A program made the position numbers and the translations under genes. The notes beneath the pieces are model-generated. The model was given only the letters and a program-made list of their open reading frames with translations. It was not told the origin of the DNA and made no database searches. Shown here in pieces: positions 34,317-40,579 of a DNA stretch of 54,098 nucleotides (the stretch's first letter is position 1; each line of letters begins with the position of its first letter). Source of the stretch: Armatimonadota bacterium (lineage in GTDB: Bacteria > Armatimonadota > UBA5829 > DTJY01); contig JAGONM010000025.1 of NCBI GenBank assembly GCA_017993055.1, forward strand, positions 1 to 54,098, given 5' to 3'.

Positions 34317-34346
34317 TTGCTAAAGTCGGGCATTGTTGGGTATAAC
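34317..34346 (+). promoter_or_regulatory. Candidate promoter of the SpoIIE-type phosphatase gene
   Basis: TTGCTA (34317-34322), 18-nt spacer, TATAAC (34341-34346). A start near 34353 would place the possible TTG initiation at 34333 outside the message, supporting ATG 34414. Confidence 0.45.
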
Positions 34347-34413
34347 TGTAGACGCAGGATGGTTGCAGCGCGGCCTGTGTCTGGACAGTGACAATACGCG
34401 CGGAGTTGCTCTC

Positions 34414-36768
34414 ATGGCCGAAGGACGTCCGAAGTCGAGTCTGAGAAGGAAGCTGCTGGTCATATTGCTGCTGGCCGTGCTCGCGCCTTCCATATTCGTG
34501 TCCACTGCCCTGATTCTGATGAGCATACAGGAACAGCAAGCTGAGGCCCTCTCGGCGCTTGGCGCCCTGGAGGAGACTGTTTCTCAGCAGGCCCTCGATT
34601 TTATAGACGATCTCGACTCGTTCCTGACTGGCGTAGGCCGCGATAGGGTCTTCGGCGAGCGGGACAGGCCCGGGCAGATTCTTGTCATGAACCGGTCTCT
34701 CGCGCGGATGTCGTTCCTGCGCAGCATGAGCGTGTACTATTCGCCCCGAGAAGTGTTTGCTGCCGTCTCAGCCTCGGATCAGGAGTGGGAGCCGCCCCGG
34801 TCCTTGGTTCAGAAAGGCTTCGTCGAAGCCGCAAAGGGCGGCATCTTCGTCAGTAGCGTCCACTACACCCCTGCTAGCGAGGCGCTCGCACTGATCATGT
34901 CTCCCATCGGATCATCGGGAGAAACCCCCGTTGGTGCTGTTGCCTGTGTGGTCAGTCTGCGCTTGCTCCAGGAACTGGCCGATGGATTCGGCTCGCAGCC
35001 CGATAGAAGCGTGCTCATCGTGGACGGCACGTGCCGGGCGGTGGCGTTTTCTCCATCGTATCCGGATATTGCCGTGGGAGACAGCCTGATGCACCTCCCT
35101 CCGGCAAGTCGGCTGATGGGCGATCCGGTTTCTGATGCGGCTGGACACCTGATCTATCGGGATCGTTGGGGAAAGCGTTATCTGGCGGTCTACAGGCGGC
35201 TGCCGGTAGTTGGGTGGGGAGTCATCGTAGAGGAAACCGCGACCCCAGCGATGACACCGCCTTATCGGGCGGTGGCGATGGCTCTCGCATGGATGATTAT
35301 CTCCGTGTTGCTTGTCACGCTGCTCAGCACCTACGTGAGCCGTCGGATCACTCGTCCGCTCAGGCTGCTCCGAGAGGGCGCCGAGTTCATAGGCGCAGGC
35401 AACCTGGGACATCGCGTTGCCATAGAGACGGGCGATGAGCTTCAGGAGCTGGCAGCTTCGTGGAACCACACTGCATCGCGTCTCGAAGCCTCGTATAGGG
35501 AACTCGAGGACGAACATGACAAGGCACTTATCTCTGCCAAAAGGGCCGACATCCTTCTTCGCATATCCCAGGCGCTTGTTGCGACTCTTCGCGTTGACGA
35601 AAGACTCGAGCTGATTGCGGCGAGTTTGGCTGATGTCTGCGGCACCCGCAAGGTGGCGATCTGGCTGATCGAAGATGGACTGGTGAGGCCGACAACCTCC
35701 TACGGGCTGTCTGAGGAGGAGGGCGAAGTTTTCGCGAAGTGGGAGACGCCTCTTGAGGATGCCCTGGATCTGACAAAACACATCGTCGCTACCGGGCAGC
35801 CGCTGGCCATCGGAAACGCTCCCGAGGACGATCTCGTGCCGACCGAGATGGCCGTCAAGTTCAACGTGAGGTCGCTGCTGGCTCTTCCGATGCTCATCGA
35901 GGACGAGGTAATGGGTGTGGCCATCGCATACGAGCCGGGCGCCTCGCGCCCCTTCTCGGACGATCAGGTCTCGATGGCGCAGGCGGTGGCGGTTCAGGCC
36001 GCGGTCGCTGTCCATAACGCGCAAGCCTATGAGCGCGAGCGGCATATCGCCTATACCCTGCAGAGGTCCTTCCTGCCGCAGATCCCCCGCCGAATCGGCG
36101 GGTTTGAGTTCGCCGACCGGTATGAGGCCGCCCTGACCGAGTCTGAGATCGGCGGTGACTTCTACGATCTGATCCGGCTGACCCCTTCGCGCATCGGCTT
36201 CGTCATCGCCGATATCTCTGGCAAGGGATTGAGCGCGGCCGTGCATACCGCCATGATCAAGTATATGCTGCGGGCCTACGCTCTCGACGCCCCGACCCCG
36301 GCGGAGCTGGTGAGGCGTCTAAATCGCGCCGTCTGGGCGGACATCGGCGGGCGGATGTTCGTCACGCTCTTCTACGGAGTACTGGATACCGAGAGCAAGG
36401 AACTGACTTACGTCAACGCCGGACACGAGCTTCCCATGCTTATGGGGGAAGACCGTGGTCTATGCCACCCGCTGGTGACCACCGGCACCGCACTCGGCAT
36501 CGTTGCGGACTACGAGTACGGCGAGGAGACGGCGGGGTTCGAGCCTGGCGACGCGCTTCTCCTCTATACGGACGGTGCCACCGATGTCAGGAATGAGGGG
36601 CGATTCCTTGGAGTGGAAGGACTTCAGACCCTCTTCTGCAACGCCGCGGGGAGGACCGCGCAGGAGATCGTCGATGCGGTGGAAGCAGGCATTCGCGGTC
36701 ATGCCGATGGAGAACTGCACGATGATGTTGCGCTGATGGTCATCAAGTACACACGGTCGGGCGATTGA
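34414..36768 (+). CDS. Membrane sensor SpoIIE/PP2C-family serine phosphatase (sensor-HAMP-GAF-PP2C)
   Basis: 784 residues. TM1 at ~12-37, extracellular sensor region ~40-280 (Cache-like from layout), TM2 ~290-315, HAMP (SRRITRPLRLLREGAEFIGA), GAF ~385-545 (LELIAASLADVCGTRKVAIW, then SLLALPMLIEDEVMGVAIAY) and a PP2C SpoIIE domain. Metal and catalytic motifs are complete: GGDFYD (580-585), ADISGKG, YTDGATDVRNE and HDDVALMVIKY. Likely dephosphorylates a STAS antagonist in response to an outside signal, releasing a sigma factor. ATG chosen from GGAG 10 nt upstream and promoter position. Confidence 0.9.
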   Translation: MAEGRPKSSLRRKLLVILLLAVLAPSIFVSTALILMSIQEQQAEALSALGALEETVSQQALDFIDDLDSFLTGVGRDRVFGERDRPGQILVMNRSLARMSFLRSMSVYYSPREVFAAVSASDQEWEPPRSLVQKGFVEAAKGGIFVSSVHYTPASEALALIMSPIGSSGETPVGAVACVVSLRLLQELADGFGSQPDRSVLIVDGTCRAVAFSPSYPDIAVGDSLMHLPPASRLMGDPVSDAAGHLIYRDRWGKRYLAVYRRLPVVGWGVIVEETATPAMTPPYRAVAMALAWMIISVLLVTLLSTYVSRRITRPLRLLREGAEFIGAGNLGHRVAIETGDELQELAASWNHTASRLEASYRELEDEHDKALISAKRADILLRISQALVATLRVDERLELIAASLADVCGTRKVAIWLIEDGLVRPTTSYGLSEEEGEVFAKWETPLEDALDLTKHIVATGQPLAIGNAPEDDLVPTEMAVKFNVRSLLALPMLIEDEVMGVAIAYEPGASRPFSDDQVSMAQAVAVQAAVAVHNAQAYERERHIAYTLQRSFLPQIPRRIGGFEFADRYEAALTESEIGGDFYDLIRLTPSRIGFVIADISGKGLSAAVHTAMIKYMLRAYALDAPTPAELVRRLNRAVWADIGGRMFVTLFYGVLDTESKELTYVNAGHELPMLMGEDRGLCHPLVTTGTALGIVADYEYGEETAGFEPGDALLLYTDGATDVRNEGRFLGVEGLQTLFCNAAGRTAQEIVDAVEAGIRGHADGELHDDVALMVIKYTRSGD

Positions 36769-37171
36769 CGGCAGTTTGCCGCCCGTCTGCTGCTTCGTTA
36801 GCCAATGCGTCATACCGTATCTTAGCCGCAGACGGATGCGCTAAATATTGTGACCGTTCGGTTAACCCGGATGTCGGAGCCTCGCATCGTGCGCGGGTCG
36901 GCATAACCGGAGATCACTCTCTGACCAGGGATTTGCGGCCGCCAAACTTGTGGCAGAAAAATCATGGTTCAGCCCCCCACATTTCCTTGACAGCCTCCAG
37001 CCTGGGTGATAAAGTCGGTCCTGCGACTGCGAGCCGTCAGACCGTGTGAATCCGAGCGGCTGTTCGGCCCGTCACCACCAAATGCGGCGCCAGCCGTGCT
37101 ATCGGGTCTATTGAGATGTATGTGGCCGTGCAAGACGCGGTTGTGACAGCATCATGGATGAGGGGGGCGCA
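36769..37171. other. 403-nt intergenic region before the RsbW-like gene
   Basis: Shortly after the phosphatase stop, CCGTCTGC (36783-36790) and GCAGACGG (36828-36835) form an 8-bp inverted repeat with a large loop, too loose to call a terminator. A promoter lies at 36987-37015. I see no convincing ORF in the rest. Confidence 0.45.
36987..37015 (+). promoter_or_regulatory. Promoter of the RsbW-like gene
   Basis: Perfect TTGACA (36987-36992), 17-nt spacer, TAAAGT (37010-37015) preceded by TGA (extended -10). Leader of about 150 nt before ATG 37172. Confidence 0.55.
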
Positions 37172-37621
37172 ATGACCACGGAAGTCCGGATCAAGAAGAA
37201 CCGCATCTATCTGCCGCACCTTCGTAAGATCGTATCCAGCTTGGCTGTGGGCTTGGGGATGAGTCGGGATGAGGTTCGCGATGCCGAGGAAGCCGTGCAC
37301 GAGGTCTGCGTCTCGTCAATTCAGGCTGCAGAGGGCGACGGTCAAGGTAGTCTCTGCATCAAGCTCCACACCTGCGACAACTGCATGACCGTGGACATCT
37401 GCGATCCCGCGTGCTGCTTCACGCCACCCGCGAACCGGCAATGGCTGGTCGGTGCCGCGTCGGCAGGCACTTTTCAGAAGCTGAGATTGCTGGCCGACGA
37501 GATCCAGTTCATGCCGGCAGACGATGGAGCTACTGTCCGCCTCACAAAGTATGCCCGGGAAGCCGAAGATCCTGTGTCTGCGTGTTTCAGTCAGTCACCC
37601 ACGAGTACTTTGCAGGTCTGA
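37172..37621 (+). CDS. RsbW-like anti-sigma / GHKL-fold protein with degenerate nucleotide site
   Basis: 149 residues from ATG 37172 (GGGGGGC 6 nt upstream). The helix DEVRDAEEAVHEVCVSSIQA corresponds to the N-box of RsbW/SpoIIAB kinases (typically SExxTNAxxH), but the Mg-ATP Asn is Ser, and the G1 box D-x-G reads DICDPA. Seven cysteines are present (e.g. CDNC, CDPACCF), unusual for the family. It may still bind a sigma factor or the STAS protein without kinase activity. The assignment rests on fold pattern and neighbours only. The 3' end overlaps the convergent CFI-box gene by 31 nt. Confidence 0.6.
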   Translation: MTTEVRIKKNRIYLPHLRKIVSSLAVGLGMSRDEVRDAEEAVHEVCVSSIQAAEGDGQGSLCIKLHTCDNCMTVDICDPACCFTPPANRQWLVGAASAGTFQKLRLLADEIQFMPADDGATVRLTKYAREAEDPVSACFSQSPTSTLQV

Positions 37622-38721
37622 ACGATTGGCAGCAATAGTGAACGGATCACTGCGCGAGCTGCTTTGCTCTCCCTGATGCCGTCGGCTATCGGCGGGCTGA
37701 TCTCATAGTAAGCGTTCACCAGGTCTCTCCCCGCAGGGCTTGTCATCAGGTAGCGGTCCCGGAACTGCCGGAGCGTCAGCACATCCTCTTCCATGTCCGT
37801 ACCGTACGCGGCAGTGGCTATGAAGCACTTCGGAGAGCCGTAGTCTGTCTTGCTGAAGTCCAACTGGGTGATGATCCACCTGTTTCGTTCCCTGGAAAGG
37901 TAGTATACCAGCCTGGTCGTCCTGCGTTTGCCGTCCGGGCCGTCGAAGACATGCTTTGCAGCCGCTCTGGCCTCGTACCCGTCCCTCTCGACCGAAGTGA
38001 AGCGAAACTCCGTCGTGCGGATGCGGCTCAACGACTCCTCCGTGAGCTTATACATCTCACGAGGCGAGACTCTGTGGGAGTAGTCTCCTTGGTAGAAGAT
38101 GTCAATGCTGCGCGCGGGGTCGACGTGCCACATGAGGAACTCCGGTTCGCGTTCCCACCATGTCGCTTCGATGTCAACGAGCGCCTCCTCTAGAGATCCC
38201 GGGACCGGAGACCGGTAGCTGTACTCTCGACGCCAGGCTCGCCTCGGATTGCGCCAGGCGTCGTCAATGATGATCACGCTACCTCTGTTGTAATAGGGGT
38301 AGTAGCTCCAGAACTGGCGGTCGTACGGGTAGAAGAACGGATCGTAATAGTGCTTGCGGTATTCGTATTCGGGATCGCGGCGCTCGTCTCGCCTCTCGAC
38401 CTGCCGAGAGAGACTCGAACTACTGTCTCGTTCGCCTCGCTCCGATGAAGACCGACTGGTGTCCTCCGAGGTCGTGGAATCGCGTTGCTCTGATCGCGAG
38501 TTGCCGACGCTGTTGCCCGACGACGAGCGGCTGTCCTGCGAAGACGAGGGGGGAGAATCCTGCTGTTTCGGAGGCGGCGAACTACGCTGTTCACCGGAGT
38601 CTTGGCTCTGCGACGACGAATCGTCTTTGGTCTTCACGATGCCCTTGGCATCGACCCTCACCACCAGAAAACCGCACGCAAGAAACGCGATCAGCATAAG
38701 CGCAACGTGTCTTGCTCTCAT
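37591..38721 (-). CDS. Secreted Ser/Tyr-rich protein with CFI-box C-terminus
   Basis: 376 residues. Signal peptide 1-25 (MRARHVALMLIAFLACGFLV), Ser/Arg/Gln-rich low-complexity 33-115, aromatic Tyr/Phe/Pro patch 119-147 (HYYDPFFYPY), then a globular region 173-292 shared with the upstream paralogue (EREPEFLMWHVDP, KHVFDGPDGK, ERNRWIITQLDFS). The C-terminal CFIATAAYGTDM (299-310) and FRDRYLMTSPAGRDLV are the CFI-box C-terminal domain seen at the end of many exported proteins, possibly a surface or sorting signal. Function unknown. GAGGTGAT site; lies 74 nt downstream of its paralogue, with a terminator between. Confidence 0.8.
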   Translation of the reverse strand: MRARHVALMLIAFLACGFLVVRVDAKGIVKTKDDSSSQSQDSGEQRSSPPPKQQDSPPSSSQDSRSSSGNSVGNSRSEQRDSTTSEDTSRSSSERGERDSSSSLSRQVERRDERRDPEYEYRKHYYDPFFYPYDRQFWSYYPYYNRGSVIIIDDAWRNPRRAWRREYSYRSPVPGSLEEALVDIEATWWEREPEFLMWHVDPARSIDIFYQGDYSHRVSPREMYKLTEESLSRIRTTEFRFTSVERDGYEARAAAKHVFDGPDGKRRTTRLVYYLSRERNRWIITQLDFSKTDYGSPKCFIATAAYGTDMEEDVLTLRQFRDRYLMTSPAGRDLVNAYYEISPPIADGIRESKAARAVIRSLLLPIVQTCKVLVGD

Positions 38722-38740
38722 CTTCCCATCACCTCGCGCG

Positions 38741-38784
38741 AAAAGAACGAGACCCCGGGGCTCGATATCTGATGCCCCGGGGTC
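38741..38784 (-). terminator. Terminator between the two secreted paralogues
   Basis: On the minus strand, perfect 11-bp stem GACCCCGGGGC / GCCCCGGGGTC (38784-38774 / 38761-38751) and then a T-rich stretch TCGTTCTTTT. Begins 12 nt after the stop of the first paralogue. Confidence 0.75.
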
Positions 38785-38795
38785 CTCGGCCTGGA

Positions 38796-39917
38796 TCAGT
38801 TGGGATACGGCGACGACCCTACGGCCGTGATGTACCAGTCCGAACCGAACCGCTCCAGGGTGTACGAAACGAATACCGTCTTCAGAGCCCCGTAACGGTC
38901 GGTGTACACGTGTTTGCCTTTCGCGATGTGCCGGTCGAGACCCGCCCGGTTCACTTTGTCAAAGTCGAACGAGTAGGTCTTGATGACCGACATCGCGTCG
39001 CGTGTCATATCGTAGTAGTCGGTCGTATCGAGAGAGTACGAATACTCATCCCTGAGGTATACGTCCACTGCGAGATAGCTCTTGACGTGCCGCATGATGA
39101 GCTCCGGCTCGGATCTCTCCCAGGCCCGCTGGATGTCTCTGAGGGCCGCCCATAGGCCCTTCTGTATCGAGTCGGAAAGGTAGTAGTCACTGGACCGGCT
39201 GTAGACGAACACCGGAACCTCCAGCACCATCCTGGCATTGGACAGTCTGGCCGTGAAGAACACGCGGTCGTGGAAAAGGTACGGCGGGAAGTAGTCGTAG
39301 TAGTAGCAATATACGGACGGGTAGCACCGCGTGGGGAAGTAGTCGTAAGAGTAGTATCGGTACCGGAAGGATGGAGTATACACCCCTACGCTCCACCCCC
39401 AGCCATCGGACCGGCCGTAGTATCCTGGACCCGAATCGTGGTATCCTCTCCGATAGTCGTCGTACCGTCGGTTGTCTGTGTCGCGCTTCTCCTGCCGCCC
39501 CCTCCAGAGGTCGCCGATGTCCGCGTAATCCTTGCGATATGTGGGACTCGGAGTTCGCGTGTCTTGCCGGGAAGATACCGAGCGGAGTTGGAACTCCTGG
39601 TCTAGCCTGTTCGTGATCGAACCCGAGGGTGAGCGGGTCTCGATGCGTGTGGCAGGGCTTCGATCCACGGTAGCCGACGAGCGGATGGATGAATCTGACG
39701 ATCGGCTGGATCCGCCCGACGCTCCGCCGGCCGATCCGCCTGAGTCGCTCGATCTGGCAGACGATCTCGATTCATTATCCGAACTCCCGCCGCCGCCGGA
39801 GGACTTGACGGCGCCTTTTGCCCAGGAGGTATCGTCGCAGACAAAGATCATTACGGCAGTCATTGCCATGGCTAGACAAATCGTAAACCCGAGGATAGCT
39901 CGAAGTCTTCCTGTCAT
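38796..39917 (-). CDS. Secreted Ser/Tyr-rich protein, paralogue without CFI-box
   Basis: 373 residues. Signal peptide/anchor 1-34, Ser/Gly/Arg-rich linker 38-103, strongly Tyr-rich stretch 151-213 (RYRYYSYDYF, CYYYDYFPPY), then a domain of ~120 residues at 253-373 that matches the neighbour: DIQRAWERSEPELIMRHVKS, KHVYTDRYGA, VSYTLERFGSDWYITAVGSS. The alpha+beta pattern with W..E.EL..RH suggests an NTF2/SnoaL-like fold, by eye only. It ends without the CFI-box. AAAGGAGTGAC before the ATG. Function unknown; likely envelope or surface located. Confidence 0.75.
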   Translation of the reverse strand: MTGRLRAILGFTICLAMAMTAVMIFVCDDTSWAKGAVKSSGGGGSSDNESRSSARSSDSGGSAGGASGGSSRSSDSSIRSSATVDRSPATRIETRSPSGSITNRLDQEFQLRSVSSRQDTRTPSPTYRKDYADIGDLWRGRQEKRDTDNRRYDDYRRGYHDSGPGYYGRSDGWGWSVGVYTPSFRYRYYSYDYFPTRCYPSVYCYYYDYFPPYLFHDRVFFTARLSNARMVLEVPVFVYSRSSDYYLSDSIQKGLWAALRDIQRAWERSEPELIMRHVKSYLAVDVYLRDEYSYSLDTTDYYDMTRDAMSVIKTYSFDFDKVNRAGLDRHIAKGKHVYTDRYGALKTVFVSYTLERFGSDWYITAVGSSPYPN

Positions 39918-40026: not shown

Positions 40027-40509
40027 CTAACGCCTTCGGCTGCCTCGCTTGGATTCCAGGTGTCGCTTGACGTCGAACTGTCGGTCGTTGCTGTCCTTCA
40101 GGAACGCCTTCAGACGGTCCTCGAAAGTGATCGAGTCGGCCGCGGCGGATCGCGGTGCGGTTTCGTGTTCGGGGCCGAGGTTCACGGGATCGGGGATGCG
40201 TTCGACGGGCCTCTGGGGTCGTCTTGAGAGAACGGGCTCGCGGGCCGGCTGCTCGATCTTCTTCGTGGAGAGTTGGTAGCGCCCCCTGCCGTTCCGACTG
40301 AGAACCGTGGCGCGTATCCGGTCGTGCTCCTTGAAATGGTCGTTGATATCACGGACGAAGGTATCGGCCACTTCGGAGATGTGAACAAGGCCGGTATTGC
40401 CGCCCTCTAGTCTAACGATCGCTCCATATTCCGCGAGCTTGACTACAGTCCCGACCACGGTGGAGCCGACCTCGAGGATCGTTTCTACTCTGGATGCTGC
40501 TTCTTGCAT
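40027..40509 (-). CDS. S1 RNA-binding domain protein (GSP13/YabR-like)
   Basis: 160 residues. S1 domain at ~10-82: VGSTVVGTVVKLAEYGAIVR, GGNTGLVHISEVADTFVRD, RIRATVLSRNGRGRYQLSTK. The C-terminal half is a polar Arg/Pro/Glu linker, then FEDRLKAFLKDSNDRQFDVK and a basic end, a layout close to general stress protein 13 and YabR of Firmicutes. Probably binds RNA or the ribosome. Monocistronic from the TTGACA promoter upstream. Confidence 0.85.
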   Translation of the reverse strand: MQEAASRVETILEVGSTVVGTVVKLAEYGAIVRLEGGNTGLVHISEVADTFVRDINDHFKEHDRIRATVLSRNGRGRYQLSTKKIEQPAREPVLSRRPQRPVERIPDPVNLGPEHETAPRSAAADSITFEDRLKAFLKDSNDRQFDVKRHLESKRGSRRR

Positions 40510-40550: not shown

Positions 40551-40579
40551 AGTATATGTTGCGGTATGCGGGCTGTCAA
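40551..40579 (-). promoter_or_regulatory. Sigma70-type promoter of the S1-domain gene
   Basis: On the minus strand perfect TTGACA (40579-40574), 17-nt spacer, TATACT (40556-40551). Start about 35 nt before the ATG. Confidence 0.78.

Follow-up and report, generated by a model that had tools for sequence, protein, structure and literature searches.

Three secreted NTF2-like domains, DUF3828, DUF4878, and DUF3887, are proposed to be non-catalytic ligand binders in the sections of PMC3924330 that deal with them; there, the enzymatic NTF2-like members are placed mostly inside the cell, and the extracellular ones are described as mostly non-enzymatic. The domain most similar in structure to the proteins considered here is DUF4783 (PF16022), represented by Bacteroides structures (4ouq, 4q53, and 4orl). 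Here, we describe two adjacent genes, A and B, in a 54,098-nucleotide stretch of DNA (the window) from an Armatimonadota bacterium (assembly GCA_017993055.1, contig JAGONM010000025.1; source genome 3.7 Mb). Based on fold prediction, sequence comparison, and genome searches, we conclude that their products belong to a new family whose architecture is unusual and whose spread among taxa is striking; the fold itself is not new.

Gene B lies upstream of A on the minus strand, with 74 bases between them, and the two open reading frames (ORFs) fill the interval 37591–39917 (Table 1). The first-pass annotation of the window, made from the sequence without database searches, had described a tandem, secreted-looking pair with a common domain. 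This description held, as the ORF limits are exact, a signal peptide can be recognized by eye at each N-terminus, and the shared domains are 31% identical over 123 residues (BLASTP E 1e-16). The reported Ser-rich linkers and Tyr-rich patches are likewise borne out by composition, with Phe, Trp, and Tyr together making up 31% (A) and 28% (B) of the aromatic regions. A signal-peptide-like N-terminus was found by a crude rule in 61 of 64 family ORFs, the three misses beginning at a locus edge; two further ORFs, of 66, were omitted as their upstream sequence was too short. The FLAC in the hydrophobic stretch of A makes a poor lipobox by eye, and the VDA/K site looks better. We read A and B as proteins that are probably exported via a Sec-type signal peptide. 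Low-complexity matches to DUF2448, Ndc1_Nup, and others in Pfam, and to NF033849 (serine-rich protein), NF047584, and others in NCBIfam, fell below the cut-offs and were set aside as compositional.

AlphaFold2 models of A and B, built on 10-row alignments, were confident across the shared domain, where 10-residue means of the predicted local distance difference test (pLDDT) were mostly 83–96; in the CFI part of A, the values were 36–54. In both models, helices lie on a strongly curved β-sheet in the order α-α-β-β-α-β-β-β-β, which is that of an NTF2-like fold. At an E threshold of 0.001, Foldseek returned 440 PDB matches for the B model. Of 1000 PDB chains ranked by Foldseek, VIA-align gave a Z of at least 8 to 924 with A and to 966 with B. 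The top rows for both models were NTF2-like, ketosteroid-isomerase-like, and designed NTF2-like entries. For both, the first three by VIA-align were the DUF4783 structures (Z 15.8–15.2 for B and 14.4–14.2 for A), the best alignments covering 105 residues at 1.8 Å (B) and 108 residues at 2.1 Å (A), and next came ketosteroid isomerases, SnoaL2, and designed NTF2-like proteins, among others. The comparison with NTF2/SnoaL folds that had been proposed as a check thus gave a consistent answer, and the modelled shared domain is an NTF2-like fold.

Despite this structural likeness, identity to the DUF4783 structures is only 11–14% in the structural alignments. Even at E values up to 1, A and B matched neither the DUF4783 profile nor any other NTF2-like model in Pfam or NCBIfam, and searches of PDB sequences returned nothing significant; a plasmid search left B unmatched. 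When 25 domain members were compared with Pfam at the same threshold, weak matches appeared in some relatives, namely DUF4440 in nine, SnoaL_3 in seven (best E 9.9e-6), and SnoaL_2 in three, but none in A or B. DUF3828, DUF4878, and DUF3887 resemble A and B in being exported and NTF2-like, but their Pfam models do not match either protein, and the descriptions of these three domains in the pertinent sections of PMC3924330 mention neither an aromatic cassette nor a Ser-rich linker. In the open-licence library searched, we found nothing on CFI-box, on DUF4783, or on tyrosine-rich, SnoaL, or signature proteins in Armatimonadota, and a single paper that names both Armatimonadota and NTF2-like proteins. 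The domain had been called undescribed, which is true of the sequence family but not of its fold. Nor did the assignment lead to a well-known family with a defined function, because the NTF2-like superfamily has many functions.

Conservation was assessed in 66 unique full-length domains (effective number 50), which include one protein, from genome G347, found outside the phylum. The most constant position is A236/B314, where strand 3 begins; it is a Thr in 65 of the 66 rows (98% after weighting). Next comes a His in strand 4 (A257/B336), which is 94% conserved and present in 63 rows, the remainder being two Gln and the G347 protein. Tyr A214 follows at 90%, and two Asp residues reach 82% each, one in helix 1 (A183) and one in helix 3, where A has Glu. 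The motifs listed in the first-pass annotation fared unevenly: WxRxEPExxMxHV is exact in B, but its Arg is displaced by one position in A (WWEREPEFLMWHV), and from KHV and WxIT it is mainly the His of the former and the aromatic residue and Ile of the latter that are kept family-wide. The face of strand 4 that carries the His is otherwise made up of small or aromatic residues (A/V, G/A, H, Y/F). Because it shares that face, strand alternation, rather than model coordinates, suggests that the near-invariant His points into the pocket.

In B-type proteins, the aromatic region follows a pattern: it is a cassette of ~80 positions, four of which (Ser, Pro, Tyr, and Tyr) are invariant across 13 rows. 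When 61 genomes were searched with a profile of this cassette, 27 of them had matches, 30 in total. Of these 30, 13 are the profile's own training rows and 17 are not, and by-eye comparison placed all 30 directly before an NTF2-like domain. The 20 genomes of the 61 that lack the domain also gave no cassette match. Instead of the B-type cassette, a shorter aromatic stretch around YPYD is found in A and in several further proteins. Tyr reaches at least 20% over a run of 60 residues in 33 of 57 called family genes, versus 0 of 524 other called genes of at least 150 residues from the same loci, a comparison that rests on crude gene calls and a set in which some contigs appear twice.

The family is widespread within Armatimonadota. 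At E 1e-4, the family profile (A2) matched 193 of 291 genomes of the phylum, including 146 of the 194 high-quality ones, and 106 of 156 genera. Most genomes among the matches listed have a single copy; the genome of the window has two, A and B alone. In a search of 397 relatives, which gave 194 matches, one of about 106 genomes outside the phylum was positive, the count being 194 minus 193 on the assumption that both searches covered the same 291 genomes. This lone match, in G347, the sole genome of its phylum in the search set, is a short, secreted-looking, DUF4783-like protein that scores 23.6 bits against DUF4783, just under the cut-off of 24.1. In the His column it carries Arg, or Thr when the alignment is made by hand, and nothing next to it matches the cassette profile. 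Directly before its gene is an ORF for a Tyr-rich, lipoprotein-like protein (L108:6033-7475); we considered whether this neighbor might be a detached cassette, but the cassette profile does not match its aromatic part. A separate contig scan with a narrow, B-type alignment confirmed nine loci among 39 candidate stretches, five in records named Armatimonadota, Armatimonadetes, or Chthonomonadia and four in records named "bacterium"; its patterns are narrow enough that absence elsewhere cannot be read from them.

The C-terminus of A, which had been overlooked in the first-pass annotation, matches CFI-box-CTERM (NF041770) with 97.5 bits against a cut-off of 40, while B is unmatched. Nine of the 61 genomes have a CFI box, once each, and four of these nine carry exactly the fusion of NTF2-like domain and CFI box. 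Other bearers differ from A in their zinc-ribbon or TPR-like regions (L109:2760-3572, L110:2857-5535, and L111:2102-4303), and in these three, from the five bearers without the fusion, no signal peptide is evident by eye. We considered the CFI box as a general tag of secreted proteins and rejected the idea, given that these three look non-secreted and that each genome has a single CFI box.

In a tree of the 66 domains, four A rows of the CFI type form a clade (Shimodaira–Hasegawa-like approximate likelihood ratio test support 98). Three proteins from another family join this clade (80), and B is placed in a group of 53 rows (87); the tree has 115 columns and no bootstrap, and 32 of its 63 inner branches are open. 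The short-cassette label does not mark one clade (four changes). With A and B on opposite sides of the split (80 and 87), a recent tandem duplication is disfavored, and there is moderate support for the two being old subfamilies. Within the family of the window, both types are adjacent in G000, G002, G003, and G004, though not in G001. G037 has two adjoining genes of both kinds, and G018 has a cluster of three, in which a third, shortened member with a partial domain (L028:2702-3247) lies between the other two. The pair looks old, and the CFI fusion appears to have been added later, because only four of the nine CFI-bearing genomes carry it.

Our preferred reading, which we hold tentatively and at a little under an even chance, is that A and B are exported, envelope-associated, and probably non-enzymatic ligand-binding NTF2-like proteins. 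They would be two members of one exported Armatimonadota family, sent out by the signal peptide. The Ser-rich stretch, to judge from its composition, would serve as a flexible tether, and the pocket of the NTF2-like cone would bind, but not convert, a ligand that is either a small molecule or derived from the envelope, a proposal that draws on published extracellular NTF2-like domains and on the near-invariant, presumably inward-facing His. Since all 30 cassette matches co-occur with the domain, the B cassette would act together with it, either by packing on it or by docking it to the envelope or wall. In A, the CFI-box tail gained in this lineage would probably be an extra interaction module, and A and B might then be two receptors or subunits with different partners. 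A cell-surface location, as was first suggested for the pair, or one in the envelope is plausible given the signal peptides and the presence of Omp85 in the window's own genome; two Armatimonadetes genomes have been argued to be diderm in the relevant part of PMC5629042.

Several observations weigh against this reading. An inward-facing, invariant His is equally expected of an enzyme. Not every family member needs the cassette, since 41 of the 61 genomes have the domain and 14 of these gave no match to it. The pLDDT is <50 in the aromatic part of B, so that the models leave packing of the cassette on the domain conjectural. A tie between the family and the presence of an outer membrane failed when tested: Omp85 is near universal, occurring in 278 of the 291 Armatimonadota genomes versus 193 for the family, and the 98 genomes without a family match are therefore not explained by a missing outer membrane. 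No gene neighbor recurred phylum-wide in the 50 loci inspected; a family gene was called in 49 of these, some contigs count double, and the gene calls come from a crude routine of our own. Neither a ligand nor a localization emerged from the analysis.

An exported enzyme seems to us unlikely. It would carry out an isomerization, dehydration, cyclization, or hydrolysis with the His as acid/base, as in ketosteroid isomerase or SnoaL, and scytalone dehydratase offers a further comparison. Ketosteroid isomerases, SnoaL2, and limonene epoxide hydrolase are indeed among the structural matches (Z 12–14), and the constancy of the His and Thr would fit an active site; an Asp and a Tyr are conserved as well. 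However, no recurring neighbor accompanies the gene across the phylum, and enzymatic members are mostly intracellular according to the sections of PMC3924330 noted above.

We give a similarly small chance to a bolder version of the envelope idea, in which the cassette and NTF2-like domain would form a single phylum-specific module, the cassette inserting as β-structure in the outer membrane or wall, or polymerizing on it, and so presenting the pocket. Such a module would be a long-established structural or sensory component of the envelope, and A and B would be two ancient subunits, with a single one retained in most lineages.

A structural surface or matrix protein, the idea of the first-pass annotation, is also improbable. 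The aromatic stretches of A and B would stack, or become cross-linked through Tyr, into a coat in which the NTF2-like domain dimerizes, and the 20% Tyr of both aromatic regions, the signal peptides, the Ser-rich linkers, and the presence of mostly one gene per genome are in keeping with this. Yet composition was all that spoke for Tyr-mediated cross-linking or adhesion, and the B-type stretch is a patterned cassette never seen without the domain in the 61 genomes; moreover, the few neighbors scanned against Pfam, out of a mostly unscanned set, include no oxidase or peroxidase. Equally doubtful is an assembly scaffold, in which the domain would be a pure dimerization module, like the CaMKII association domain, pairing two cassettes to hold an outer-membrane or wall partner, since, although one of the top structural matches (Z 13.6 with A and 13.7 with B) is 3gwr, whose title is that of a putative CaMKII association domain, the most constant strand residue, the His, lies on the presumably inward face.

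Around the pair, an S1 homologue upstream of a family gene recurs in G002, G004, G018, and G020, five genomes in all, and S1, B, and A are perhaps one transcription unit. Three promoter-like sites were found in the region, versus 1.6 expected. The hairpin between B and A (loop 12) has a fold z-score of −2.97, with 1 of 200 shuffles as stable; the terminator scan omits it, its loop being longer than the scan allows, and as the search pattern was derived from the hairpin itself, its chance count of zero is no independent test. Owing to this hairpin, A may be expressed less than B. The HATPase-like gene is found beside A in four genomes, and a HATPase_c_2 gene (88.5 bits) is also near the G018 family genes. 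Close to the HATPase-like gene of the window, positions 34333–36768 encode a SpoIIE-type phosphatase that also has GAF and HAMP domains and matches Cache weakly, and the two are perhaps a partner-switching regulatory pair. Elsewhere, a propeller protein occurs in eight loci of cluster C3 (e.g., L024:5011-7230), directly upstream at 20–72 bases in seven of them, and is Reg_prop by Pfam in the two of eight tested. In G018, the gene cluster is followed by a same-direction gene with a borderline match to the outer-membrane-barrel model OMP_b-brl (28.3 vs. a cut-off of 28.7 bits), a homologue of which is found in G020; this neighbor favors an envelope role.

Table 1. Features of the A/B locus, in window coordinates
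Feature	Position	Strand	Remarks
Promoter-like site	40551..40579	minus	TTGACA-17-TATACT, 11/12; upstream of S1 gene
S1-domain protein gene	40027..40509	minus	Upstream of B, same direction
Gene B (P0002)	38796..39917	minus	373 residues; signal peptide, Ser-rich linker, long aromatic cassette, C-terminal NTF2-like domain
B signal peptide	39819..39917	minus	Residues 1–33, end SWA/K, by eye
B Ser/Gly/Arg low-complexity linker	39477..39818	minus	Residues 34–147; 25% Ser
B aromatic region	39159..39476	minus	Residues 148–253; 20% Tyr; cassette proper 39162–39401
B NTF2-like domain	38811..39155	minus	Residues 255–369
11-bp perfect inverted repeat, then T-rich stretch	38751..38784	minus	Between B and A; terminator- or attenuator-like by eye
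Gene A (P0001)	37591..38721	minus	376 residues; signal peptide, Ser-rich linker, short aromatic stretch, NTF2-like domain, CFI-box tail
A signal peptide	38647..38721	minus	Residues 1–25, end VDA/K, by eye
A Ser/Arg/Asp low-complexity linker	38371..38646	minus	Residues 26–117; 32% Ser and no Tyr in 27–117
A short aromatic stretch	38194..38370	minus	Residues 118–176; 20% Tyr; not matched by B-type cassette profile
A NTF2-like domain	37852..38193	minus	Residues 177–290
A CFI-box-CTERM domain (NF041770)	37621..37827	minus	Residues 299–367
Convergent gene, HATPase-like	37154..37621	plus	HATPase_c_2 match 22.3 bits (cut-off 27.4); 3′ end overlaps that of A by 31 bases

The family offers a handle on a little-studied phylum, as an exported-looking domain found in about two thirds of its searched genomes, and the family profile could be used to annotate about 190 genomes at once. 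The unit of cassette and domain is small enough for expression and structure solution. If A and B are indeed envelope components, they would represent a phylum-specific part of a diderm envelope.

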